64,000 nt of DNA, taken from positions 62,001-126,000 of the forward strand of contig JAAYPT010000013.1 of NCBI GenBank assembly GCA_012519695.1, written 5' to 3'. How positions within the stretch are numbered: position 1 is the first letter of the stretch; each line of letters begins with the position of its first letter. The translations under genes were made by a program, and so were the position numbers. Origin of the DNA: Clostridiales bacterium. GTDB taxonomy: Bacteria; Bacillota; Clostridia; Lachnospirales; Lachnospiraceae. The notes beneath the pieces were generated by a model. The model saw only the letters and a program-made list of their open reading frames with translations. It did not search any database and was not told where the DNA came from. Shown here one piece after another: positions 30,176-47,285 of this stretch.

Positions 30176-30721
30176 AAATACACCAGTGGTGTCACTTCCG
30201 TAAAATTAAAGTGCATTGTAGAATATCAATTGTCCAAGAGAGATTGGACGTAACAATTGAATAATCAGTTACAGATTTGCAAAGTAGTTTGCACTACAGA
30301 ATTTCTGTAGGTAGTAAAATTACGGGGCATGTACCTGGAAGATGAAAGTCACAGCTATCATATTAGTAGTCTGATGGATCGAAAGATGAAGGGCGAGAAG
30401 CTGGATGGAAATCTGGTAAAAGGAATCGGCATGTTGCGTAAGGATAATTAACCACAGAGGGCGAGAAGTTCGTCCTTATCCTCAAAAGGCTAAAAGAGGA
30501 GATAGTGCTTCTGATAATTCAGAAGGGCGTCGTGAAACACATTTTGTGGCTCGTCTGTAACTCCCGGAGGTGAGAACACCTCTTTGTACACGGGGCGATA
30601 TAGGAGTCTAGAAGACTGGCGTGTACCTACATGCTTAGCATTAAGCATAGCCATGTAGACTATATCACTTCCAAATTCAAATTTTGTCTATATGGCAACT
30701 AATTTGAAGGAGGATAAAGTG
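30176..30721 (+). ncRNA. Long structured non-coding region, candidate ncRNA or leader
   Basis: No convincing gene covers these ~545 bases, but many hairpins do. The clearest are: tcaattgtccaa with ttggac..caattga (30225-30261); ctacagaa/ttctgtag (30294-30310); cttctga/tcagaag (30508-30525); gaggtg-agaa-cacctc (30567-30582); gtacacg/cgtgtac (30586-30626) with agtct/agact inside; ctacatg..catgtag with an inner tgctta/taagca (30627-30658); and ttcaaatt/aatttgaa (30676-30708) ending at the ribosome site of the next gene. A 40-codon ATG frame at 30329-30451 has no ribosome site. I do not recognise the RNA class. It may be a regulatory leader of the segregation operon, a stand-alone RNA or an intron remnant. 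Confidence 0.45.
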
Positions 30722-31112: not shown

Positions 31113-31163
31113 GTGGTTAAGATGTTCAAGTGGCTGTTTAAGAAGAAAGGATGTGCAAAACAT

Positions 31164-32084
31164 ATGAATAACAAGTTAGAAGTAATCGGCATTGATCATG
31201 GTTGGTCAATGATGAAAACAATCTCTCAGGTATTTGTCACAGGAGTTAAGGAGATTACAACAACTCCGGCACTTTTCGGCGATGTACTTGAGTATGAAGG
31301 AAAGTTCTATAAGGTTGGAACTGTGAGGCAGGAAGTAAAGGATACAAAGGTCGAAGATGACAGCTTTTATCTTCTCACTCTTGCAGCAGTTGCTAAGGAA
31401 CTTAAAAGAAGAGGTCTTGCAGAGGCAAAGGTATTCCTTGCCGTAGGACTACCACTTACAAGGTTTGGAGCAGAGAAGAATGATTTTATCAAGTACCTGA
31501 CAAAGAATAAGCGTGTAAGCTTCAAATATGAGAATGAGCCGTATTATATTGAAATTGATGATGTGGCAGTATTCCCTCAGTGTTATGCAGCAGTAGTGGA
31601 CAAGATTCCTACAATGGCAAAGAAAACGCTGATAGTAGATATCGGTAGCTGGACAATCGACATTATGCCGGTAATCAACAAGTCACCGGATGAATCAAAG
31701 TGTGTGACGATACCAAAAGGTCTTATTACCTGTATGCGTTCTATCAATGAACAGTGTGTAAGACAACTTAACGGAGAGGTAGACGAGTCAGAGATACAGA
31801 ACATCATGCGGTATGGCAGGTCAGATATTGATGATGAATACTTTGCCATTATCAAGGCAGAGATAGAGGATTTTGTTGATAAGGTATATAACTCAATCCG
31901 TGAGTTTGGGTATAACTTAAAGACTACACCGATTGTATTTGTCGGTGGCGGGGCAGTTGTGATGAAGAATTTTGGTAGTCATGATGCTAAGAACATTTCC
32001 TATAACCTTGATGTAAAGGCAAATGCAAGAGGATATGAGCAGCTTGCCACAATGGGACTTAAAAGCACTAAGCGATTATCATAA
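31164..32084 (+). CDS. ParM/actin-like segregation protein
   Basis: The protein is an actin-like ATPase. Phosphate 1 is VIGIDHGWSMMKT, phosphate 2 is LIVDIGSWTIDIM and the adenosine motif is PIVFVGGGAVV. ParM proteins form filaments that push plasmid copies apart. I prefer ATG 31164 (AAAGGA ten bases upstream), which gives the usual MNNKLEVIGID start; GTG 31113 and ATG 31122 are also in frame and would add a basic tail. The next gene encodes a ParR-like protein. Its presence in an integrated element suggests a plasmid-like replicating stage. Confidence 0.8.
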   Translation: MNNKLEVIGIDHGWSMMKTISQVFVTGVKEITTTPALFGDVLEYEGKFYKVGTVRQEVKDTKVEDDSFYLLTLAAVAKELKRRGLAEAKVFLAVGLPLTRFGAEKNDFIKYLTKNKRVSFKYENEPYYIEIDDVAVFPQCYAAVVDKIPTMAKKTLIVDIGSWTIDIMPVINKSPDESKCVTIPKGLITCMRSINEQCVRQLNGEVDESEIQNIMRYGRSDIDDEYFAIIKAEIEDFVDKVYNSIREFGYNLKTTPIVFVGGGAVVMKNFGSHDAKNISYNLDVKANARGYEQLATMGLKSTKRLS

Positions 32085-32092
32085 GGAGGCAG

Positions 32093-32542
32093 ATGATGGG
32101 AAGAAGACTTGAATATGAAGTAAAAACTTCTGTCCGCCTCAACATGAGCAATCCTCAGCATGTGAAAATCAATGATGTGATTCAGAACCTTGATCCGAAG
32201 ATTTTCAAATCTAAGAACCAGTTCATTATAGATGCGATTCAGTTCTACATTGATAATTATGGAAAAGAAACTTTTGTTATCAAGAAGAAGGAAAAAGAGA
32301 GGGCTGAATATATCCGGTCAGAAGATATTGATGACATTAAGGAAGAAGTCATTGAAGCAGCAACCAATGAGGCTAGGAAAGAGGTCATAAGGCTGTTAGG
32401 CGGAGTGATATCCGGAATGAATGTTGGTCAGCCGGTAATAATGCAGGCAGCCAATAGTGAAGCACAAGAACCTACAGAAGATGTTATGGACGATGCAGAT
32501 GTTGCAGGACTTGCAATGGGATGGATGTCGAAAGGAGACTGA
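32093..32542 (+). CDS. ParR-like adaptor, ribbon-helix-helix type
   Basis: The 149-residue protein follows the ParM-like gene by eight bases (AAGGAGG site). The N-terminal part (KTSVRLNMSNPQHVKINDVIQNLDPKIFKSKNQFIIDAIQFYI) looks like a ribbon-helix-helix DNA-binding unit. The tail is acidic, as expected for a ParR C-terminus that contacts ParM. Together they would make a type II partition system. The DNA site (parC) would be expected upstream, perhaps within the structured region before 30722. Confidence 0.65.
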   Translation: MMGRRLEYEVKTSVRLNMSNPQHVKINDVIQNLDPKIFKSKNQFIIDAIQFYIDNYGKETFVIKKKEKERAEYIRSEDIDDIKEEVIEAATNEARKEVIRLLGGVISGMNVGQPVIMQAANSEAQEPTEDVMDDADVAGLAMGWMSKGD

Positions 32543-33770: not shown

Positions 33771-33810
33771 AGAAAGATGTAAGCCATAAACTTATGTCTT
33801 TCTTTTTTTA
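33771..33810 (+). terminator. Leader hairpin with T-run before the adhesin gene
   Basis: A 13-bp stem (33771-33783 with 33791-33803, two G-T pairs) and loop CCATAAA are followed by seven Ts. Its top part ATGTAAGCCAnnnACTTATGT is shared with the hairpin at 39227. It ends about 17 bases before the ribosome site of the adhesin, so it may be an attenuator for that gene rather than only a terminator. Confidence 0.65.
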
Positions 33811-33836
33811 TGCGTAAATTAAGGAGGAAAGAGCAT

Positions 33837-36800
33837 ATGAAACAGAAACTAAAGCGTTTTATGGCAGGATTTATGGCTATGCTCACACTGGTTGGAACAC
33901 TCTTTACGAATGGAACAACAGCATTTGCAGCCAGTCCGCAGGCAAATATTGCGTTCTGGAATGCGTCAGTCAAAAATTCCGGAGAAGTAAGTGAGCTGAA
34001 GCCCGGATATAATCATGGCAAGATTCTGTATTCAATTCTTGACGGAAATTCTGCATATTGTATGAATTTCGGATTAAGAGCAGATGGCGGTCAGCTTATG
34101 AACAGCTACGATGATGCGAGCACATCAATGTCAGCACAGCAGAGAAAACTTTTAAGTTACTGCCTTTATTATGGGTTTAACAGTACACAAAAGGCGGCAC
34201 CAAGCAACAGTCAGTGCGATGAGTATATCGCAACTCAGGCAATGGTATGGGTTATTGTAGCAGATATCTTTGGAACCGGAAGTGGTGATTCGGCAGCAAG
34301 AAAGCTCTGTAACACAGCACCAAGTCCTGATTCTTCATACAGCTATTATGAGAGACTCAGGGACAATATCAGCAGCTCCTACAATGCAACACTTCCAAGT
34401 TTTGCATCACGCAGAATTAGTGAGGCACCAACTTATGAATTAAAGTGGAATGAGGGAAGTCAGAGATTTGAAACAACACTATCTGACAGCAATGGTGTTT
34501 TATCGGATTTTGATTTTGGCATCAGCGGATATTCTGTTGATAAGAATGGCAACAGTATTACAATCTCTTCAACGAGCGTGAATACTACAGCTACAACAGG
34601 AACATTCACATCCAATGCTGGCAAGGTTGAGACAACATCAAGCTGTGTATTCTGGCTTACAGGAAAGAGCGGATATCAGGAGTTTATTTCTGAAAGACCG
34701 ACAGCAGATCCTATCAAAGCCTATATCAAGGTCAAGACAGAGAACATCGGATATGGTGAGCTTACAAAGACAGACGAGTCAAGCGGAGTGAAGCTTTCCG
34801 GTGCAGTCTATGGAATCTATTCTGACAGCGGATGCACAAACAGAGTACAGACCATGACAACAGATGGAAACGGATATGCAAAGTCAGCTGCACTTGTTGC
34901 AGGCACTTATTATGTAAAAGAGATTACCGCACCAAAGGGATATGTCCTTTCCGGTAAAGTTCATACACTTACTGTAAAAGCAGGACAGACAACGGGAATC
35001 TCTGCAACAGATAAAGAGCAGCTTGGAGCAATCACAATCTATAAAGAGGGTGAGGTGCTTAGCTCATGGAATGGAAGCAATTTCACTTATGAGAAAAAGA
35101 AGCTTTCTGGAGCAACTTTTAAGGTAACTGCTGGAGCAGATATCTATAAGGCAGATGGTACAAAGGTGTATAGTGCTGGCGATGTTGTGGCAGAAAGCCT
35201 TACAACAGGAACTGACGGACAGGTGGTATTATCTGACCTTCATCTTGGAACTTATGTGGTAACTGAGATTAAGAGCATTGACGGGTATACAATCAATACC
35301 ACACCTCAGACAGTAGCAGTTGAGTATAAGGATCAGACTGTGACAGTACAGTATGAATCAACTACGATTGAGAATACAAGACAGAAAGCGGATGTATCTG
35401 TCGTAAAGAAGGACTCTGACACAGAGAATCCTCTTGATGGTGGCAAGTACACACTTTATGCCGGAAATGACATCAAAAACTATGCCGGACAGGTTATTGT
35501 GACAAAGGGTACAGCTCTTGAGACAGTATCTACAGGTGAGGACGGAAAGGCAAGCTATAGCGTGGATCTGCCAATCTCTAACGGATATTATGTCTCAGAG
35601 ACACAGGCACCATATGCGTATATCAGAAACAGTAAAGATGTTTACAGCTTCAATTTCAATGTATTACCTGAAACACAGGCAAAGGCATCATTCAGTCACA
35701 CATTTGTAAATGACAGAACCACAGCAAAGATTCATATCTACAAGGTAGACAAGGAATCAGGCAAGGCAGCAGCCCAGGGAGATGCAAGCCTTGAAGGTGC
35801 AGTTTATGGTCTTTATGCGAGAAACGATATCGTGCATCCGGACGGAGCAACAGGAGTCGTATTCAAAGCAGGAGACCTTGTAGCAACACTTACAACAGAT
35901 AAGAATGGCGAAGCAGAGGTCAATAACCTTTACCTTGGAAACTATTATGTGAAAGAAATCACTCCATCAGAGGGGTATCTCTTAGACGAAGAGGAGCACG
36001 ATGTAGTATGCGACTATGAGGGAGACCTTGTAGCAGAGGTATCAAGAAGCACAACCTCAGCAGAGCAGGTCATCAAGCAGCCATTCCAGCTTATCAAGGT
36101 ATCTGACAATGGCGATGATACTGAAGCAGGCTTATTGGCAGGTGCAGAGTTCACAGCTTATTTGAAATCATCTTTACCTGTAAAGGCAGATGGAAGTTAT
36201 GACTTTGACAAGGCAGCTCCGGTAGTAATCGGGGAAAACGGAGCAACAACAATCACATCCGATGACAAGGGACATGCAGTTTCTATTGCAATTCCTTATG
36301 GAACCTATGTGGTAGTTGAGTCAAAGACTCCGCATAATATGAAAACAATCAAGCCATTTGAGGTAAAGATAAAGGAGAATCATCCAACAGAGCCTCAGAC
36401 ATGGAGAGTTTTCTTGGACAGAGAGTTTACAGCAAAGCTTCGTGTAATCAAGAAGGATTCTGATACAAAGCAGACAGTACTTGTACCAAATGCAGAGTTT
36501 AAGATTTTCAACCTTGATAAGAACGAATATGTAAAGCAGTACACAACTTATCCGTCAAAGGTAGAGCATACTTCATTCTTTACTGATGAGGACGGAGATT
36601 TAATCTTACCGGAGGCACTGAAAATCGGTAACTACCGCATTGAGGAAGTGTCTGCACCATTTGGATATGTTGTAAATGATAAGTATGTCAACATCTCTGT
36701 TGATACTGACACAGCATTTGAGACAGATGGTGATACAAATGATGCAATCATTACTGTGGAATATTCCGATGCCCCTGCAGTCGGAGAGCTGACTGTAGAA

Positions 36801-39215
36801 AAGAAGGGAGAGGTACTTGACGGATTTAAGGGTGGACTCCTGGCAAGCTCATATGAGAAAGAGTTTGTTTATAAGGAAGGCTCACTTGCCGGAGCAAAAT
36901 TCAAAGTTTATGCTGCCGAGGATATTTACACAGCAGACAACCAGAAGGATGCAGACGGAAACCGCATTAAGTATTACAGCAAGGGAGACCTTGTGACAAC
37001 TCTTACAACTGGCAAGGATGGAAAGGCAACAGCTAAGAATCTTCCTCTTGGACAGTACAGGGTTGTGGAAGTGGAAGCTCCATACGGATATGTATTAAAT
37101 CCGAATGAGCAGAAAGTGACATTCACATATGTGGATGATAAGACACCTGTTATCAAGGAAAGCCTTACTTTCTCAGATGACAGACAGAAGCTTGATATGT
37201 CAGTGACTAAGCTTGATTCAGAAGATAATACACCGATTGTAGGTGCAGTATTTGGTCTTTATGCAGACGAGGATATCAAGAATGTAGATGGCAAGGTAAT
37301 TATCGAGAAAGGCACACTTCTTGAGAAGACAACATCTGATGAGAATGGAAAGATTGCTTTTGTTAAGGATTATCCATTTGCAAAATATGTTGCAAGAGAG
37401 CTTGTAAAGCCTGCCGGATATGTGACAAATGAGGAAGCAGTAAACTTTGATACAAAATATCAGGGACAGGATGTTAAGACTGCTGTATATAACAGCGAGT
37501 ATAAAAACACACCTACAACCTTTGAGTTTACAAAGACAGATATCACAAGCGGTGCAGAGCTTACAGGTGCAACACTTACTGTACTTGATAAGGATGGAAA
37601 TGTGGTAGACACATGGACATCTGATGCTAAGGAAGCACATGTGATCAAGAGACTTGTCGTAGGCGAGACTTATACACTTCGTGAGGAATTTGCTCCTTAC
37701 GGATATCTTAAAGCAACAGATATTAAGTTTAAAGTAGAGGACACTGGCAAAGTGCAGCATGTAGAGATGAAGGATGAAGTTCCTACAGGTTCCATCGTTA
37801 TCAATAAGGACGGCGAATTTGTAACAGACACTACTCTTATGAAGGGTTACTGGTATGACTTTATCTTCAATTTCTTCAAGGACAGCCTTGCAGGAGTAAC
37901 TTTTGATGTATATGCAAAAGAGGATATCGTAAGTGCTGACGGACTTGACACTGTATATCACAGGGCAGGAGACAAGGTGGCAACCATCGTGACAAATGAT
38001 AAGGGTATCGCAAGAATTGATGACCTTCCACTTGGCAAGTATTATCTTGTTGAGACAAAAACCATTGATGGATTTGTATTAGATGATACACCGATTGAGG
38101 CAGACCTTTCCTATATCGACCAGAATACAAAGGTTGTATTTGCAGGAATGGATGTGACAAATGAGCGTCAGAAAGTGCAGATTACTGTAACCAAGACGGA
38201 TTTAGAGACTAAGGAAGCACTTGAAGGAGCAGTATTCGGTTTATTTGCGAAAGAAGATATCGTGAACAAAGATGGCAAGGTAATCGTAAAAGCTGATACA
38301 CAGATTGAGAGAACAGTAACAGGCAAGGATGGAAAGGCTGCATTTACCTCTGACCTTCCGCTTGGACAGTATTATGTCAAAGAACTTGAGGCACCAAAGG
38401 GCTATGTGAAGTCAGATAAGACATTTGATGTGGATGCTTCATATCAGGGAGATAAGGTAAAGGTTATCGAGTTTGAGGCAGCATTTGAAAATGCACCTAT
38501 TAAGGTAGAAATTTCAAAGACTGATATCACAGGAGAGAAAGAGTTGCCTGGAGCAAAGCTTTCAGTAATTGATGCTGATGGAAAGCTTGTAGAAAGCTGG
38601 ACATCAGAAGCAGGAAAGACGCATATGATTGAGAGACTTCCTGTCGGAAAGTACACACTCAGAGAGGAATCTGCACCGTATGGATATAAGGTGGCAAGTG
38701 ATGTAACCTTTGAAGTAAAGGAGACTGCAGAAATCCAGAAGGTATCCATGAAGGATGAGCAGGCAGTCGGTAAGATTGTCATCGAGAAAACTGACAAAGT
38801 AACCGGAAAGCCGATCGAGGGTGTTGTATTTGAAGTAAGGGATAAGGATGGAAAGGCGCTTGATACACTCACTACTGACAAGAATGGTCATGCAGAGAGC
38901 AAGGAGCTTCCTATCTGTACTTACAATGAGGATGGATCATTCAAAGAAGATATCCATTATACAGTTGTTGAGACTAAAGCAGCTGACGGATATATCCTTG
39001 ATGAAACAGCTCACGATGTAACACTTCGATATGATGATAATGCACCGGATGTTGTTGTAGCAACTCTTAAGCTTGTCAATGTACCGACAGAGCCTAAGCT
39101 TCCACAGACAGGTGACAATGCAAATCCGCTTCTTTATCTTGGAATCGGTGCACTTGCACTTATTACAGGTGTTGGAGTAGGACTTCGTGGAAGAAAGAAA
39201 AAGAATAAACAGTAA
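33837..39215 (+). CDS. Sortase-anchored thioester/Cna-B repeat adhesin
   Basis: I start at ATG 33837 (AAGGAGGA upstream), giving 1792 residues. Residues 1-32 are a signal peptide. A thioester domain follows with Cys75 (AYCMNFG) and Gln134 (ATQAMVW), the pair expected to form the reactive bond that attaches covalently to a target. Then come about 13 Cna-B/SpaA-type repeats (about 310-1745), many with the Lys of 'TKTD' and the Glu of 'VKE' typical of isopeptide bonds. The end is LPQTGDN, a hydrophobic helix and RGRKKKNKQ, a sortase signal. Such proteins bind host or partner cell surfaces. It is flanked by matching leader hairpins and is the largest cargo gene seen. Confidence 0.93.
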   Translation: MKQKLKRFMAGFMAMLTLVGTLFTNGTTAFAASPQANIAFWNASVKNSGEVSELKPGYNHGKILYSILDGNSAYCMNFGLRADGGQLMNSYDDASTSMSAQQRKLLSYCLYYGFNSTQKAAPSNSQCDEYIATQAMVWVIVADIFGTGSGDSAARKLCNTAPSPDSSYSYYERLRDNISSSYNATLPSFASRRISEAPTYELKWNEGSQRFETTLSDSNGVLSDFDFGISGYSVDKNGNSITISSTSVNTTATTGTFTSNAGKVETTSSCVFWLTGKSGYQEFISERPTADPIKAYIKVKTENIGYGELTKTDESSGVKLSGAVYGIYSDSGCTNRVQTMTTDGNGYAKSAALVAGTYYVKEITAPKGYVLSGKVHTLTVKAGQTTGISATDKEQLGAITIYKEGEVLSSWNGSNFTYEKKKLSGATFKVTAGADIYKADGTKVYSAGDVVAESLTTGTDGQVVLSDLHLGTYVVTEIKSIDGYTINTTPQTVAVEYKDQTVTVQYESTTIENTRQKADVSVVKKDSDTENPLDGGKYTLYAGNDIKNYAGQVIVTKGTALETVSTGEDGKASYSVDLPISNGYYVSETQAPYAYIRNSKDVYSFNFNVLPETQAKASFSHTFVNDRTTAKIHIYKVDKESGKAAAQGDASLEGAVYGLYARNDIVHPDGATGVVFKAGDLVATLTTDKNGEAEVNNLYLGNYYVKEITPSEGYLLDEEEHDVVCDYEGDLVAEVSRSTTSAEQVIKQPFQLIKVSDNGDDTEAGLLAGAEFTAYLKSSLPVKADGSYDFDKAAPVVIGENGATTITSDDKGHAVSIAIPYGTYVVVESKTPHNMKTIKPFEVKIKENHPTEPQTWRVFLDREFTAKLRVIKKDSDTKQTVLVPNAEFKIFNLDKNEYVKQYTTYPSKVEHTSFFTDEDGDLILPEALKIGNYRIEEVSAPFGYVVNDKYVNISVDTDTAFETDGDTNDAIITVEYSDAPAVGELTVEKKGEVLDGFKGGLLASSYEKEFVYKEGSLAGAKFKVYAAEDIYTADNQKDADGNRIKYYSKGDLVTTLTTGKDGKATAKNLPLGQYRVVEVEAPYGYVLNPNEQKVTFTYVDDKTPVIKESLTFSDDRQKLDMSVTKLDSEDNTPIVGAVFGLYADEDIKNVDGKVIIEKGTLLEKTTSDENGKIAFVKDYPFAKYVARELVKPAGYVTNEEAVNFDTKYQGQDVKTAVYNSEYKNTPTTFEFTKTDITSGAELTGATLTVLDKDGNVVDTWTSDAKEAHVIKRLVVGETYTLREEFAPYGYLKATDIKFKVEDTGKVQHVEMKDEVPTGSIVINKDGEFVTDTTLMKGYWYDFIFNFFKDSLAGVTFDVYAKEDIVSADGLDTVYHRAGDKVATIVTNDKGIARIDDLPLGKYYLVETKTIDGFVLDDTPIEADLSYIDQNTKVVFAGMDVTNERQKVQITVTKTDLETKEALEGAVFGLFAKEDIVNKDGKVIVKADTQIERTVTGKDGKAAFTSDLPLGQYYVKELEAPKGYVKSDKTFDVDASYQGDKVKVIEFEAAFENAPIKVEISKTDITGEKELPGAKLSVIDADGKLVESWTSEAGKTHMIERLPVGKYTLREESAPYGYKVASDVTFEVKETAEIQKVSMKDEQAVGKIVIEKTDKVTGKPIEGVVFEVRDKDGKALDTLTTDKNGHAESKELPICTYNEDGSFKEDIHYTVVETKAADGYILDETAHDVTLRYDDNAPDVVVATLKLVNVPTEPKLPQTGDNANPLLYLGIGALALITGVGVGLRGRKKKNKQ

Positions 39216-40937: not shown

Positions 40938-41915
40938 ATGGATGGAAGATTTACGGATGAAGAGCTTGCCATAGCAAAGCGTGTTGATCTGTGTGCAGTT
41001 GCAGAAAGCCTTGGGTATACAGTAAAGAGGATTGGCAAATACCACACTTTAAAGGAGATGGATTCCATCCGTATCTATAACAGAAGCCATTGGTACAGAT
41101 GGTCAAGGCAGTTTGACAAAGGCAACAATGGCGGCTCACAGATAGATTTCTTACGGGTATTCTGTGGAATGAGTGTAAAAGAGGCTGTATTCTGGCTTTT
41201 AGATTTTGCAGGATACAGAAGAATCGAGAATCCTGTAAAGCAGCCACTTGTTCATCAGGTATCGCAGAAGCAGGCAGAAGAGAGAAAGCCATTTGTCCTA
41301 CCGGAACCGGCAGGAGATAATTCCTATCTTATTTCCTATCTGAATCAGGAGAGAGGAATCAGCAGAGCAGTCATAGATTTGTTTTTAAAAGAAGGACTGA
41401 TTTATGAGAGCAGGCATTATCACAATGTTGTTTTCAAAGGAAATGATAAAAATGGAGTGACAAGATTTGCAAGTATGCGGGGAGTGTTTGATAAGCAGGG
41501 TAAGTCATTCAAGTGTGATGTCACAGGAAATGATAAGAACTATGGATTTAATGTGGTGAATGAAAACAGTACAGAGCTTGTAGTATTTGAGGCTGCAATC
41601 GACCTTATGAGTTATGCCGATATCTTCGCGGATTATGAATCAAATAAGCTGGCACTTGGGATGCTTGCAGATGCACCACTTGAGACTTTTCTTCGGGAAT
41701 ATCCGCAGATTACTTCCATCCGGTTCTGCCTTGATGGAGATGAGCCGGGGAGAAAAGCAGCAGCTGAACTTATGAGAAAGTATTATGAGCTTGGATATGA
41801 GGTAGAAGACTGTCCGCCACCTGCCGGATATAAGGATTACAACGAGTGGCTTGTAGCGGCAAAGCTTAATCTGAACAGGATGAATAAGCGAGCAGATGAA
41901 CCAGTCAGGGCATGA
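40938..41915 (+). CDS. DUF3991/Toprim primase-like protein
   Basis: The 325-residue protein has an N-terminal zinc-finger-like fold lacking its cysteines (VAESLGYTVKRIGKYHTLKEMDSIRIYNRSHWYRW). A DUF3991 region and a Toprim domain follow (ELVVFEAAIDLMSYADI, then SIRFCLDGDEPGRKAAAELM, with the DxD-like acidic pair DGDEPG). Such proteins may prime replication of the transferred strand. The hairpin array starts 4 bases after its stop, consistent with a link to replication. Confidence 0.85.
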   Translation: MDGRFTDEELAIAKRVDLCAVAESLGYTVKRIGKYHTLKEMDSIRIYNRSHWYRWSRQFDKGNNGGSQIDFLRVFCGMSVKEAVFWLLDFAGYRRIENPVKQPLVHQVSQKQAEERKPFVLPEPAGDNSYLISYLNQERGISRAVIDLFLKEGLIYESRHYHNVVFKGNDKNGVTRFASMRGVFDKQGKSFKCDVTGNDKNYGFNVVNENSTELVVFEAAIDLMSYADIFADYESNKLALGMLADAPLETFLREYPQITSIRFCLDGDEPGRKAAAELMRKYYELGYEVEDCPPPAGYKDYNEWLVAAKLNLNRMNKRADEPVRA

Positions 41916-41919
41916 GAAA

Positions 41920-42087
41920 CCGGATTTTGATGTGTGGGGGCAGAAAGCGCCCCCAAAACAGCAAAGTGGGGGCAGAAAGCGCCCCCAAAATGTCAAAGTG
42001 GGGGCAAAAAGTGCCCCCAAAATTTGGACACGACAAAATCCGGACTGAAGTAAAAATAAAAGTGGGGGCAAAAAGCGCCCCCACTTT
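41920..42087. repeat. Four-copy G-rich hairpin array, three copies closed by a 10-bp inverted repeat
   Basis: Four copies of tgggggca-(g/a)aaag-(c/t)gccccca lie at 41934-41956, 41966-41988, 41998-42020 and 42059-42087. Each folds as a stem of G5C/GC5. The fourth is a perfect 11-bp stem (aaagtgggggc/gcccccacttt). Copies one to three are enclosed by ccggattttg (41920-41929) and caaaatccgg (42034-42043), a perfect 10-bp inverted repeat. It is intergenic, between primase and mobilisation genes. It may be an origin of replication or transfer, a single-strand origin or a strong terminator block. Confidence 0.85.
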
Positions 42088-42102
42088 CATAAACAGAGGG
42101 TT

Positions 42103-42165
42103 TTAGGGAGATTTTCTCCCTAACTAGATGGCATTAGGACAGAGATGTCTCTAATGCGTATCTAG
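42103..42165. repeat. Two palindromes upstream of the mobilisation genes, possible oriT
   Basis: Palindrome A is ttagggaga/tctccctaa (42103-42123, 3-base loop). Palindrome B (42124-42165) is layered: ctagat/atctag outside, gcattag/ctaatgc in the middle and gaca/tgtc at the top. A tandem repeat ACTGGAG-ACTGGAG (about 42182-42195) follows. Origins of transfer are usually next to the mobC/relaxase genes and contain such repeats. No nick site can be identified from the sequence alone. Confidence 0.5.
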
Positions 42166-42242
42166 CAGTCGCCGGGGACTAACTGGAGACTGGAGCTTTG
42201 GTGAATATTTACTAAACACGGATAAGGAGGTGCAAGGAAGCA

Positions 42243-42767
42243 ATGGATGCAGAAGTTACGCTATTTACAAAACCAGAAGAACTGATTGCCTGGGCAGACA
42301 CATTTGATATCTTACTTAACCCTTCGATAGAAGATGCTGCAATATTGCTTAACTATATGGAAGGTCATGATTATGCTATTGGCATAGATTCTGATGGAAA
42401 GATGTACAGACAGGATGTAGCTGAGGAGAATGGTGAAATTGAACCATACCCGATAGATGATGTTATAGATACTGTTTGTGAATGGAACTATGAACTGATA
42501 CTTGATGCTGATGCACACAGGAATGATCCAAAGGATTTTAAAGATTACAGTGAGTTTCAGGATAAGTATGACAGTTTGAAAGCAGATGAAAAGAGGCTGG
42601 ACAGGTTGTTTGAAAAGACCTGTTATGCAAAGGAGATTGATGAAATGGCAGCTGCTTTGGTGGAATCATTCATTAGTCATCTAAGTAGCAGGGATGATTT
42701 GGAAAAAGCTGCGGTGACAGTTGCAGAAGGAATTAAGGATTATAGTACGGGTAAGAGAGGAAGGTGA
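42243..42767 (+). CDS. Conserved acidic protein of the element, unknown function
   Basis: The 174-residue acidic protein starts at ATG 42243 behind AAGGAGGTGCAAGG. It has VTLFTKPEELIAWADTFDILLNPSIEDAAILLNYMEGHDYAIGI in the first third, an LPD-like small domain, and a helical end. It lies between the candidate oriT and mobC. I do not recognise a catalytic site. A relaxosome accessory role is inferred from location only. Confidence 0.55.
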   Translation: MDAEVTLFTKPEELIAWADTFDILLNPSIEDAAILLNYMEGHDYAIGIDSDGKMYRQDVAEENGEIEPYPIDDVIDTVCEWNYELILDADAHRNDPKDFKDYSEFQDKYDSLKADEKRLDRLFEKTCYAKEIDEMAAALVESFISHLSSRDDLEKAAVTVAEGIKDYSTGKRGR

Positions 42768-42771
42768 GTCT

Positions 42772-43104
42772 ATGGCAGATAAAGTTCATTGTATTAGGAA
42801 AACACTAAGACTAATGCCAGAGGAAGCCAAGATGCTTGCAAAAAAGGCATGTGATAATGGAATGAATGAGGCTGAGTATATCCGTCTTCTTATCAGTCAG
42901 AAACCAAATGATTATCCGGAAGTAAGGAAGATTCTGAAGGAACTCATTAATGAAGTCAACAGAATTGGAATAAATATCAATCAGATAGTATTTAACAATA
43001 ATGCCGGGCTGTATTCCAAGGAAGATAAGACACAGCTGATAGCTTATATGCGAAAACTGAATCAGAAGATAGATGAGGCGGTGGTAAAGATTGGCAATCA
43101 GTAA
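42772..43104 (+). CDS. MobC-like relaxosome protein
   Basis: I start at ATG 42772 (AGGAAGGTGAG upstream). The 110-residue protein has an N-terminal ribbon-helix-helix-like segment (IRKTLRLMPEEAKMLAKKACDNGMNEAEYIRLLI) and the typical MobC end (VRKILKELINEVNRIGININQIVFNNN). MobC proteins bind oriT and help the relaxase to nick. It overlaps the relaxase start by 14 bases. Confidence 0.85.
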   Translation: MADKVHCIRKTLRLMPEEAKMLAKKACDNGMNEAEYIRLLISQKPNDYPEVRKILKELINEVNRIGININQIVFNNNAGLYSKEDKTQLIAYMRKLNQKIDEAVVKIGNQ

Positions 43105-44539
43105 AATCCTTAATATGAAGGATTGTGGTGGGCATTTTCACGGAAAACATCTGAAGAGATCTCTTGATTATGTGATGAATCCGGAGAAAACACAGGATGG
43201 AAGGCTCGTTGGTGCAATCAACTGTCAGGTCGATTCTGCTTTTGAACAGATGAAAGCTACAAAACGGAAGTTTGGAAAAGTTGATAAAAGGCAGGGATAT
43301 CATATCATTCTCTCATTTAAGGAAGATGAAGTGAATCCTGATATGGCATTTGAGATAACCCGCAGATTCGTGGAAGAGTATCTTGGAAAATCATATGAGG
43401 CAGTATATGTGGTGCATGATAATACAGCACATGTTCATTCACACATTGTATTTAACAGTGTGAGTTTTGTGGATGGGAAAAAGTATCGCTATGAAAAAGG
43501 AGACTGGGCAAAGTATATCCAGCCAATCACGAATCAGTTGTGTCAGGAATATGGTCTTTCAATCATTGATGTTGATGATGGCAGTAAGGAAAAAGAGTAT
43601 GAAAGCTATAAGGACTGGAGCGAATATCGTGAAGGCAGTTTTGTATGGGCAGATATGATTAAGAGAGACCTGGATTCCTGCATACTGCAGGCAGGAAATA
43701 ATGAGCAGTTTCTGGAGCTGTTATCTGACAAAGGATATGAGGTCAAGCAGGGAAAGTATCTGGCAGTAAAGCCACAAGGAATGACGAGATTTCGCAGATG
43801 TAAGACATTAGGTGACATGTATTCTGATGAGGCAATCCGGGAAAGGATAGAAAAAGAGGATATTTCATTTTACCGGGAACAGCAGAAAGAAGTACAACCG
43901 GTTCTTTGTAAGTGTAAGGTGAGAAGATACCGAAGGGCAAAGATGTCGGGGCTTCAAAAGAGATACTATGCAAAGCTATACCGGATAGGAAAGCTGAAAA
44001 AGAAGCCATACAGTCAGGTATGGAAGTATAAGGATGATATCCGTAAGATGCATAAACTGCAGGAGGAGTATTTGTTCCTTGTCAATCATGACATTCATTC
44101 AGCAGAGGAGCTTGTCAGTGTAATCAGCTCATTGACAGATAAAAGAAAAGAAGTTTCAGCAGAGAAAAGCCGCATTTATAAGGCTAGGGAGAGAAGTCGA
44201 GAACTTTTTGATATAGCAGATGATATGAAAGAGTTAGAACCTGCTGAGAAGTCTTTCCTCCAGGGAGATGAATTTTTTACGGATGAGCATCTGCAATGGG
44301 AAACTTTGAAACAGAAGCTTTTATCACAGGGATATAGCCTTGAAGAGGTGGAAGCACTGCGTAAACATTATAAAGAGGAGTATTCCAAAGCATGTGCAAA
44401 AGAAAGGGCAGTATTCAAAGAGTTGAATATTGGTAAATCTATATGGAAGAGTCTTATTCCAGACAGCGTATCAGATGGAAAAGATGCACAGTACAACAAA
44501 GAGACAATACGAGACAGGAAAGAGCAGCCAGAACGTTAG
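43091..44539 (+). CDS. Relaxase, MobA/VirD2 type
   Basis: The 482-residue protein is a DNA-nicking relaxase. The nicking tyrosine is probably Tyr27 (SLDYVMN), and the metal-binding histidines are H114-V-H116-S-H118 after HDN (109-111). The N-terminal ~210 residues form the nuclease domain; the rest is long helices. The start is TTG 43091, overlapping mobC, with a weak GGTGG site, which suggests coupling. Together with MobC it should cut at an oriT, probably in the palindromic region upstream. Confidence 0.88.
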   Translation: MAISKILNMKDCGGHFHGKHLKRSLDYVMNPEKTQDGRLVGAINCQVDSAFEQMKATKRKFGKVDKRQGYHIILSFKEDEVNPDMAFEITRRFVEEYLGKSYEAVYVVHDNTAHVHSHIVFNSVSFVDGKKYRYEKGDWAKYIQPITNQLCQEYGLSIIDVDDGSKEKEYESYKDWSEYREGSFVWADMIKRDLDSCILQAGNNEQFLELLSDKGYEVKQGKYLAVKPQGMTRFRRCKTLGDMYSDEAIRERIEKEDISFYREQQKEVQPVLCKCKVRRYRRAKMSGLQKRYYAKLYRIGKLKKKPYSQVWKYKDDIRKMHKLQEEYLFLVNHDIHSAEELVSVISSLTDKRKEVSAEKSRIYKARERSRELFDIADDMKELEPAEKSFLQGDEFFTDEHLQWETLKQKLLSQGYSLEEVEALRKHYKEEYSKACAKERAVFKELNIGKSIWKSLIPDSVSDGKDAQYNKETIRDRKEQPER

Positions 44540-45762: not shown

Positions 45763-46167
45763 ATGAATTTAGCAGTAGTAAATGAAGCAGTAACAGAGAT
45801 GAATGGTGTGGAGCATCAGTTTACAGAGGAAGAGAAAAACTTTGTTGTCCAGTTCGCATTCAGAAGCGGCAGCAAGGAAGATACGATTTCTCTTATTGAA
45901 GCATTGGCACATTCGGCGGATAAGGCTGAGTCGGACGAGATTATGGTCACATACAGGGCTAAATATGATATGAAGCCTGCATGGGTGGAACAGGTGGAAA
46001 ACCTGCTTGTGGCACTTGAAATGTACCGTATCGAGGAGGAAAAAGCAATTAATCATCTGGCAGATATTTTGAATGCTTATGGTATTGATGTATCAGCCGA
46101 GGAAATCCGTACTACAGAGACAGAAACACTTAAAACAACAGTCAGAGAGAAAGCGGAGGTGCGATAA
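45763..46167 (+). CDS. Small transfer-region protein, unknown function
   Basis: The 134-residue acidic, helical protein starts at ATG 45763 (TTAGGAGG upstream). It lacks membrane segments and recognisable motifs. Its stop overlaps the start of the PcfB-like gene (TAATG), implying coupled translation with the coupling machinery. Confidence 0.55.
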   Translation: MNLAVVNEAVTEMNGVEHQFTEEEKNFVVQFAFRSGSKEDTISLIEALAHSADKAESDEIMVTYRAKYDMKPAWVEQVENLLVALEMYRIEEEKAINHLADILNAYGIDVSAEEIRTTETETLKTTVREKAEVR

Positions 46168-47285
46168 TGGCAGAAGAGATTCAGGAAGCGGTGCAGATCA
46201 TCCGTGTTGCTTATGATGGCATTGAGATTGCCATGAAGGTAGGAAGTGGAGGAATAGCTGCCATGCAGAAGGCAATAGATTTCTTAAAAGGGATGCTTGA
46301 TTATGAGAAGTCACTTGGCAAGACATCCATGAGAAAGCTGCTCTTAAAGGGCGGTGATTTACAGGTGTTACAGTTTAATACCGAAGATATGAAAAAGGTT
46401 GAAAAGATGGCAAAGAAGTATGGAATACTCTATTCAGTACTTCCGGACTGCAACAGGAAAGACGGACTGAGTGAGGTAATCTTTCATACAGAGGCAGTTC
46501 CACGTGTGAATATGATGATACAGAAGCTCAAGTTTGGCAAGATTGCCACATTTGACGATTATCTGAAGAATGGAGATGAAAAATCACTTGGCAAGCTGAT
46601 GGATTTTTTGAAGAAACAGCAGGGAAACGAGAAAAGCCACACGATAGAAGGGGATAGGGTTAATTCCGCTATTGACGGACTGATTGAAAAGGTAGGAATG
46701 TTTGCAATGGAAAAGAAAGCTATCAGTGTGGATCAGGTCAAGGAGAATTTCAGTATCAATGGTGAGCAGGCTGAAAGTGTTATCAGACAGCTTGAGACAA
46801 TCGGTGTGCTTGGCAGCAAGAATGAAGATGGCACCCATACAGTAATGATGGACAAGGATGCATTTATTAATCGTGTCAGAGGTTATCAGGACCTTGCTGA
46901 GAGAATGAGGGCGGTTGCGGCATCAAAGAATGCGAACCTGTCAGATGTGACTATCAGCAAGAAGCTGATTATAGAAGAGAATGACCATGCTGTTAAGACC
47001 AGAGTTCCCGGCACATGGGGAGAAGAGGCAAAATATGTATGGCTCCGTAAGGAAAACATCATGGAGATTCATGGTGGAAAGACAATGCTTACCTTCCTTG
47101 ATTCAACCAAGGATTATAAGCTCTACGATGAGCAGAATCGTGTGGTGACAACCCAGAAAGGAACCGAGCTTTATACTCACTATGATAAGGTGGAATCATC
47201 TGTCAGGGAGCGTTACGAGAAAGTGCAGAAGCAGCAGAAAAAGACAGCGCAGAAGAAAACTGTTACCACAAAGAAAGCGAGGTAG
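46167..47285 (+). CDS. PcfB/DUF3801-like protein
   Basis: The 372-residue protein has a DUF3801-like N-terminal part (about 25-160, with FLKGMLDYEKSLGKTSMRKLLLKGGDLQVLQFNTEDMKKVEKMAKKYGILYSVLPD). A winged-helix-like middle (KAISVDQVKENFSINGEQAESVIRQLETIGVLG) and a Lys-rich end follow. PcfB-type proteins are encoded just before VirD4-like coupling proteins and are thought to help bring the relaxosome to the channel. Here the coupling protein gene follows after 6 bases. Confidence 0.7.
   Translation: MAEEIQEAVQIIRVAYDGIEIAMKVGSGGIAAMQKAIDFLKGMLDYEKSLGKTSMRKLLLKGGDLQVLQFNTEDMKKVEKMAKKYGILYSVLPDCNRKDGLSEVIFHTEAVPRVNMMIQKLKFGKIATFDDYLKNGDEKSLGKLMDFLKKQQGNEKSHTIEGDRVNSAIDGLIEKVGMFAMEKKAISVDQVKENFSINGEQAESVIRQLETIGVLGSKNEDGTHTVMMDKDAFINRVRGYQDLAERMRAVAASKNANLSDVTISKKLIIEENDHAVKTRVPGTWGEEAKYVWLRKENIMEIHGGKTMLTFLDSTKDYKLYDEQNRVVTTQKGTELYTHYDKVESSVRERYEKVQKQQKKTAQKKTVTTKKAR

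Follow-up and report, generated by a model that had tools for sequence, protein, structure and literature searches.

Dyad repeats beside the transfer origin of a Lachnospiraceae integrative conjugative element: a candidate parC-like centromere

The window described here, a stretch of 64,000 nucleotides from contig JAAYPT010000013.1 of a Clostridiales bacterium (Lachnospiraceae), carries an integrative conjugative element (ICE). An array of dyad repeats lies next to its origin of transfer (oriT). We propose, with moderate confidence, that this array serves as a parC-like centromere for a partition system of the actin type (type II, ParM/ParR) that the ICE itself encodes. The proposal draws on the phased dyads found 5' of an oriT-like block, on a geometry that is kept among relatives, and on co-variation, which among the genes compared is best with a ParR-like gene. 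Like the centromeres of type II parMRC systems, the array is made of repeats.

The array consists of four 21-bp dyad units at 41935-42083 with the pattern TGGGGGC-ANAAAGY-GCCCCCA (Table 1). The unit starts are 32, 32 and 64 nt apart. The first three units, exactly 32 nt apart, form a triplet that is enclosed by a perfect 10-bp inverted repeat; a repeat search returned this inverted repeat as 16-nt arms with 88% complementarity. An earlier, sequence-only reading of this DNA had described four near-identical hairpins, three of them enclosed by this inverted repeat, between a Toprim primase and the mobilisation genes, and all of this holds. The array is a real feature and exceeds what chance would give. 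The RNA fold of 41905-42100 reaches -89.0 kcal/mol (z -8.7) and is equalled by none of 200 dinucleotide shuffles; DNA energies give z -8.9, again with 0 of 200 shuffles as good. The same reading had envisaged a closed stem with three arms. This is the centroid of the DNA fold, but the RNA minimum is a single nested rod in which unit 1 pairs with unit 3 around unit 2. Unit 4 is the counterpart of the last unit of the second triplet in ICE relatives with the same arms. Two triplets are the usual form in these relatives, and the window array, with one triplet and a single unit, looks as if two units were lost. Array boundaries and lineage labels were assigned by eye from the sequences.

Table 1. 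Features of the array, the oriT-like block and the neighbouring genes in the window
Feature	Position	Strand	Remark
ParM-like actin gene (ALP_N), proposed motor	31113..32084	+	
Small ParR-like gene, proposed array reader	32093..32542	+	ribbon-helix-helix-like N-terminus by eye
DUF3991/Toprim_2 primase-like gene	40938..41915	+	left neighbour of the array
Left arm of enclosing inverted repeat (ccggattttg), triplet 1	41920..41929	+	pairs with 42034-42043
Dyad unit 1, TGGGGGC-AGAAAGC-GCCCCCA	41935..41955	+	
Dyad unit 2	41967..41987	+	32 nt past unit 1
Dyad unit 3	41999..42019	+	32 nt past unit 2
Right arm of enclosing inverted repeat (caaaatccgg)	42034..42043	+	
Dyad unit 4	42063..42083	+	stem extends to 11 bp
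oriT-like block, first hairpin TTAGGGAGATTTTCTCCCTAA	42103..42123	+	similar hairpins at the same place in relatives (by eye)
oriT-like inverted repeat CTAGAT...ATCTAG	42124..42166	+	repeat arms within 42124-42165
MobC/NikA-like gene	42721..43104	+	
MOBP-type (MobA/VirD2-type) relaxase gene	43091..44539	+	

The surroundings of the array are an origin-of-transfer region. The oriT-like block (42103-42166), which starts some 20 bp past the right end of the array, has on its sequence what is expected of an oriT, an inverted repeat and a nic motif beside the relaxase genes. The array has no such combination and is not itself the oriT. The origin role suggested by the sequence-only reading is partly supported: oriT, one of the roles it named, fits the adjoining block. 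A nic-like sequence at 42158-42166, GTATCTAG followed by C across the predicted nick after 42165, resembles the RP4-type MOBP nick. In the loci inspected, the predicted nic follows the array on the 3' side of the same strand; in L119 the dyads flank both sides. The Rfam Clostridiales-2 RNA model (RF02937) gives a weak match of 24.6 bits at 42089-42179, which is the oriT block. Both matches of this model in the own genome are oriT blocks. RF02937 was not adopted as a name for the block, as only two of seven family-wide matches adjoin mobC or a relaxase gene.

The geometry of the array is conserved and its sequence is replaced. A relaxase search returned 18 matches of at least 50% identity, and the regions upstream of all 18 (by eye or unit search) carry repeats in the same place, five with the window's arms and 13 with other arms. 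Among 49 repeat lags, 32 nt comes out on top in 11 of 16 lineages (tied with 31 in L119) and within the top three in 14, the misses being L097 and L106; the window itself and an integrative mobilizable element (IME) with related arms are counted in the 16. For one unit from each of 11 lineages, picked by eye, 69 of 77 arm cells are complementary. Arms swapped between lineages have a mean of 3.45 complementary positions of seven, and 23 of 110 swaps reach at least five. Stem pairing, whose absence in relatives the sequence-only reading had taken to argue against an origin role, is therefore conserved. Judging from these loci, related conjugative elements keep the position and geometry of the array and replace its sequence, with both arms changing together. 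Such pairing would also be expected of inverted binding sites for a protein.

The array can be separated from the mobilisation genes. Outside the mob module, the ICEs of two genomes, G047 and G164, share 92-100% identity with the window between 31113 and 61350, as far as the available sequence reaches, and genes past both ends of this interval are 53-87% identical. Within the mob module the identities are 78-79% for a 174-aa ORF, 82% for MobC, 74% for the relaxase and 81-82% for a coiled-coil protein. Both ICEs have the window's arms despite the diverged module. The ICE sequences diverge just right of the predicted nic, while the array and the left half of the oriT stay with the backbone. Since the array stays behind when the mob module is swapped, its partner is probably not the relaxase module. 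The replacement of the segment 42166-45753 by a version 74-82% identical in otherwise near-identical ICEs looks, from the sequence, as if recombination had used the nick site.

Two ICEs with different arms reside together in genome G002, and 21 of their 24 matched proteins are 62-92% identical. The other three are the ParR-like protein (36%), the 174-aa-type ORF (39%) and the coiled-coil protein (42%). Only the ParR-like protein among these is near-identical (99%) in the same-arm, mob-swapped ICE of G164; the G047 contig ends before this gene. In a pairwise comparison of ParR-like N-termini the identity is 100% and 97% in the only two same-arm pairs and at most 55% across the 76 different-arm pairs. 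Nine more ParRs, all from genomes that carry same-arm arrays, match that of the window over residues 1-60 without a difference. Same-arm ICEs with diverged backbones (L049, L057 and L052) keep the ParR strand KTSVR[LF]NM, with N-terminal identities of 85-88% versus 57-70% for the rest. In this set of ParRs one locus label (L044) is uncertain, and the ParM assigned to L049 is on a different contig from the array. When G231 (same arms) and G110 (other arms) are each compared with the window, the identities are 64 and 65% for DUF5688, 73 and 72% for RadC, and 72 and 73% for TrbC. They are 89 and 71% for ParM and 88 and 68% for the ParR N-terminus (55% for G110 in the all-pairs comparison). Intermediate genes are those for the coiled-coil protein (61 and 48%), MobC (77 and 67%), the primase (84 and 76%) and the coupling protein (88 and 80%). 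Among the compared genes the arms appear to follow the ParR-like gene best, and ParM tracks them almost as well. As read from these sequences the co-variation is a correlation, and related ICEs differ in many genes at once. A ParR that resembles that of L095 was also seen on contig C135 of G122, where an L095-type array would be expected; none was found, and the available 16 kb of that element has neither an oriT nor any other array.

The gene preceding the ParR-like gene is, by profile, a ParM-type actin. It matches ALP_N at 1.1e-12, and a ParM profile matches solved ParMs, best 4apw (2.3e-11) and also R1 ParM (3.5e-5). A ParM-like gene with a small gene downstream was found in 13 of 16 ICE regions, and the contigs of the other three end about 4-8 kb from the relaxase. 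The small gene adjoins parM in all 13 regions with a ParM match. The ParR-like proteins share invariant R15, H23 and S40. The ParR-like protein had no meaningful match in Pfam or PDB, and its single-sequence structure model has a pLDDT of only 36.6, which both weigh against the centromere reading. The array of the window is not adjacent to parMR, as it lies about 10 kb from parM, and neither an array nor arm half-sites occur beside parM in the regions examined, a difference from classical parC that also speaks against this reading. Two side observations concern this part of the ICE. Rfam Clostridiales-3 RNA (RF02942) scores 270.7 bits at 30364-30631, upstream of parM, and a repetitive protein of 1801 aa, with an LPQTG-type anchor motif at its end (by eye), is encoded at 33810-39215.

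The order parM, small gene, nic motif, mobC and relaxase occurs in six of 40 relaxase loci (L108, L111, L112, L114, L115 and L116, of which L111 and L112 are near-identical). ParM is matched at E 2.6e-78 or better in all six. In the five loci inspected, the small gene and the nic motif are separated by about 210-260 bp that contain short repeats, direct or inverted. The parR profile values of the six are 7e-9, 1e-7 and 3e-7, with weak values of 0.012, 0.012 and 4.5 in the others. Contig C6 of G012, with an ALP gene some 1.5 kb upstream of a relaxase gene, may be a seventh case. L107, an ambiguous locus that fits the partition model poorly, lacks an array next to mobC, and its ALP gene is 27 kb distant. 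No ParM or ParR was found in about 30 kb around L113, which has a primase and an oriT and no array, or in 36 kb of L119, which has dyads around its oriT. L113 agrees with the partition model, and L119 counts against it.

Eleven matches to the array unit (at most three mismatches) were found in the own genome, and none in a reversed control. They fall at three places, all adjoining oriT-like sequence (by eye). These are the ICE of the window, an IME on contig C68 whose nine units, grouped as three triplets, precede its own mobC and relaxase, and a cassette on contig C74 with one unit and an oriT block and no mob genes. The idea of a dispersed palindromic repeat (REP, MITE) was dropped because the unit is linked to these oriTs and is not scattered over the genome. 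The full unit (at most one mismatch) is present in five of 150 family genomes, the own genome included. A pattern of two adjacent units with partly free arms recovered 23 stretches in the genome collection. The ICE arrays among them have two triplets 64-65 nt apart, and the IME arrays two or three triplets 44-45 nt apart, some minus a unit. A search of viral contigs for the array gave no matches. The oriT end of the region matches eight Enterococcus and Lactococcus plasmid records; the one inspected has two triplets at 32 nt, with still other arms. On an Enterococcus faecium plasmid (L186, NZ_CP079928.1, 17547-23041) the primase-array-oriT-mob module lies as a fragment between resistance genes, and no ParM or ParR is annotated in that stretch.

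The window-type array is shared with smaller elements. It occurs in eight IME-type loci, of which L012 has a confirmed mobC and relaxase and the L038 and L045 regions a confirmed relaxase, the remaining five being assigned from their array and flank alone. Three of these eight genomes also yielded an ICE array of this type. Cassettes with an oriT block and at least one unit and without a relaxase are L013 (5753-5961), L035/L040, L050 and L156, with L036 as a degenerate fifth. They sit at different chromosomal places and have no match to mobC, relaxase, primase or coupling protein in the available sequence, which ends 0.6 kb after the units in L050 and begins 0.1 kb before them in L156. Because the cassettes were located by the units, or by resemblance to these, their count is not unbiased. 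L156 (MT836647.1), named Bacteriophage sp., has the look of bacterial chromosome and encodes carbamoyl-phosphate synthase as well as a sugar transporter.

A mechanism can be proposed for the centromere reading. Dimers of the ParR-like protein would bind the inverted half-sites, and the loaded array would form a segrosome that caps ParM filaments. The filaments would then move the ICE circle, so that the excised, replicating ICE is kept in the cell, and the segrosome may bring the ICE to the transfer machinery. IMEs without parMR and the oriT-only cassettes that bear the address of the window ICE would use its system in trans. A further and tentative step, which we think rather unlikely, is that the array acts as an address that evolves fast and is specific to each element. 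With a centromere inside the oriT region, segregation would be coupled to conjugation, and the ParR-loaded array with its ParM filaments would deliver each element to the transfer machine that it encodes. The addresses would keep most co-resident ICEs apart, and IMEs and relaxase-less cassettes would ride by the address of a helper. In four genomes with two or three elements (relaxases at least 50% identical) the arms differ in three, G002, G110 and G122. The two elements of the fourth, G101, have the same arms and near-identical ParR N-termini, which speaks against addresses that keep co-resident ICEs apart and slightly lowers our rating of this step. If right, the centromere reading with its addresses would explain how related conjugative elements share one gut bacterium. 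It would provide a sequence code for compatibility and for which small elements ride which helper, readable from DNA alone as array arms against the ParR N-terminus, and would tie partition to conjugation in Gram-positive ICEs.

The array may instead be a phased double-strand binding site for another protein of the ICE backbone, with a part in relaxosome assembly, coupling-protein docking or control of the mob operon. We regard this as unlikely, if the least so of the alternatives. It would have the same geometry and would be co-inherited with the backbone in the same way. Hairpins account for the fixed spacing and inverted half-sites no better than protein dimers bound to double-stranded DNA would, and 14 of 17 arrays have triplets spaced at 52-55 or 64-65 bp (the 64 of the window being to its single unit). 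The spacings cluster, with a Rayleigh p of about 3e-4 at a period of 10.5. A specific helical phasing was discarded, as periods 10 to 12 fit alike and A-tracts are phased at p<0.05 in only six of 17 arrays. What weighs against this reading are the results on individual candidates. The best candidate, a DUF3801 protein with an FtsK-gamma-like domain, was rejected as reader because the domain is missing in two array lineages (L099 and L102) and because L104 and L106 share the recognition helix yet differ in arms. In the window this protein is encoded at 46167-47285 and adjoins the coupling protein. In the same-arm G231 (L057) the match to the 174-aa ORF covers only 10% of the ORF, and MobC, the relaxase and the coiled-coil protein are the diverged proteins of same-arm ICEs noted above.

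The array is probably not a single-strand origin, in which the transferred strand would fold into hairpins or the nested rod and a primase or RNA polymerase would start the complementary strand; we consider such an origin quite improbable. The very stable folds and the adjoining primase-like gene would suit such an origin, as would the position 5' of the predicted nic, which most plasmid single-strand origins share relative to the double-strand origin (PMC4595007). The IME on C68, however, keeps the array in a genome whose only DUF3991 primase is that of the window. Other-arm arrays fold at z -3 or below in 10 of 12 cases, the exceptions being L096 (-2.1) and L103 (-1.2). The plus strand folds more stably in 21 of 24 arrays, with one tie and two opposite, but under a shuffle control (40 shuffles each) this excess vanished and the asymmetry took mixed signs with no consistent bias, so that strand-specific hairpins were rejected. 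Among 30 distinct triplet cores, Watson-Crick nesting of unit 1 with unit 3 is better than self-pairing in 12, equal in 18 and never worse. All 12 are cores of IME or cassette arrays, whose sequences are related, and represent few independent events, and a third arrangement beats nesting in L039 and L057. Single mismatches inside the inverted arms are more often G-T (54) than A-C (29) on the plus strand, counts that are neither independent nor controlled, and L094 and L095 hold fixed mismatches within their arms. The enclosing stem is significant (p<0.05) in five of 20 triplets tested: those of the window, L049, L056, weakly L052 (triplet 1) and one IME triplet (L038, the third). Three compensatory pairs are seen by eye in the L049 stem. 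With 15 triplets not significant, the closing repeat is lineage-specific and was dismissed as a general part of the array. Separate hairpins also need no fixed 32-nt spacing. The single-strand origin of the sequence-only reading, taken as strand-specific, gained no support, given the mixed asymmetry, the few closing stems, a 32-nt spacing that persists through sequence turnover, and an array identity that goes with the backbone and best with the ParR-like gene.

An RNA element that lies between the primase and mob genes and acts as a leader, a stabiliser or a terminator is very improbable in spite of the strong RNA fold and a terminator-like match at 42090-42056, one of three such matches (1.7 expected) and all on the minus strand, since no plus-strand terminator-like site was found (the first three hairpins are followed on that strand by A and not by the T run that an intrinsic terminator has after its GC hairpin on the coding strand), the oriT-only cassettes keep at least one unit without mob genes in the available sequence, and no Rfam family matches the array at gathering score.

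The centromere reading has partial parallels in known systems, which are compared here from the available parts of the cited papers. The arrangement in these ICEs was not found in a search of open-licence papers by title and abstract opening. In the pCW3-like plasmids ParR reads repeat arrays, and the specificity of ParR and parC sets compatibility; as here, ParR/parC families differ between co-resident, otherwise similar conjugative elements (PMC9426499). Unlike their parC, which is upstream of parM, the array is about 10 kb from parM, beside oriT and in 32-nt triplets (PMC9426499). The srpMRC locus of SXT/R391 ICEs is likewise an actin-type partition system in an ICE, with srpC and oriT in one intergenic region and repeats both direct and inverted (PMC4489591). 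Unlike the array, it has four 13-bp repeats upstream of srpM, and SrpR was reported to have no homology to known ParRs; binding of SrpR to the oriT fragment itself was non-specific (PMC4489591). The clostridial chromosomal Cb-cParCMR resembles the array in that its parC includes three palindromic repeats (PMC12270681). That parC adjoins parMR, and the available text gives no link to conjugative elements (PMC12270681). The parS-like sites of SGI1 are a case of a mobilizable element carrying the centromere of its helper, although they belong to a ParABS plasmid system and not to ParM/ParR (PMC10954446). The sso1 of ICEBs1 is also structured DNA near the oriT of an ICE; unlike the array, in which no such strand signal was found, it is strand-specific, has three stem-loops and lies downstream of oriT (PMC4595007). 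The relaxase is reported to be stimulated by R1 ParM and ParR, of which ParM also binds the coupling protein (PMC4949242). A partition-related protein is reported to bind an oriT region (PMC12421886). By analogy, a centromere at oriT would suit a coupling of partition to the relaxase of the kind described in these two reports.
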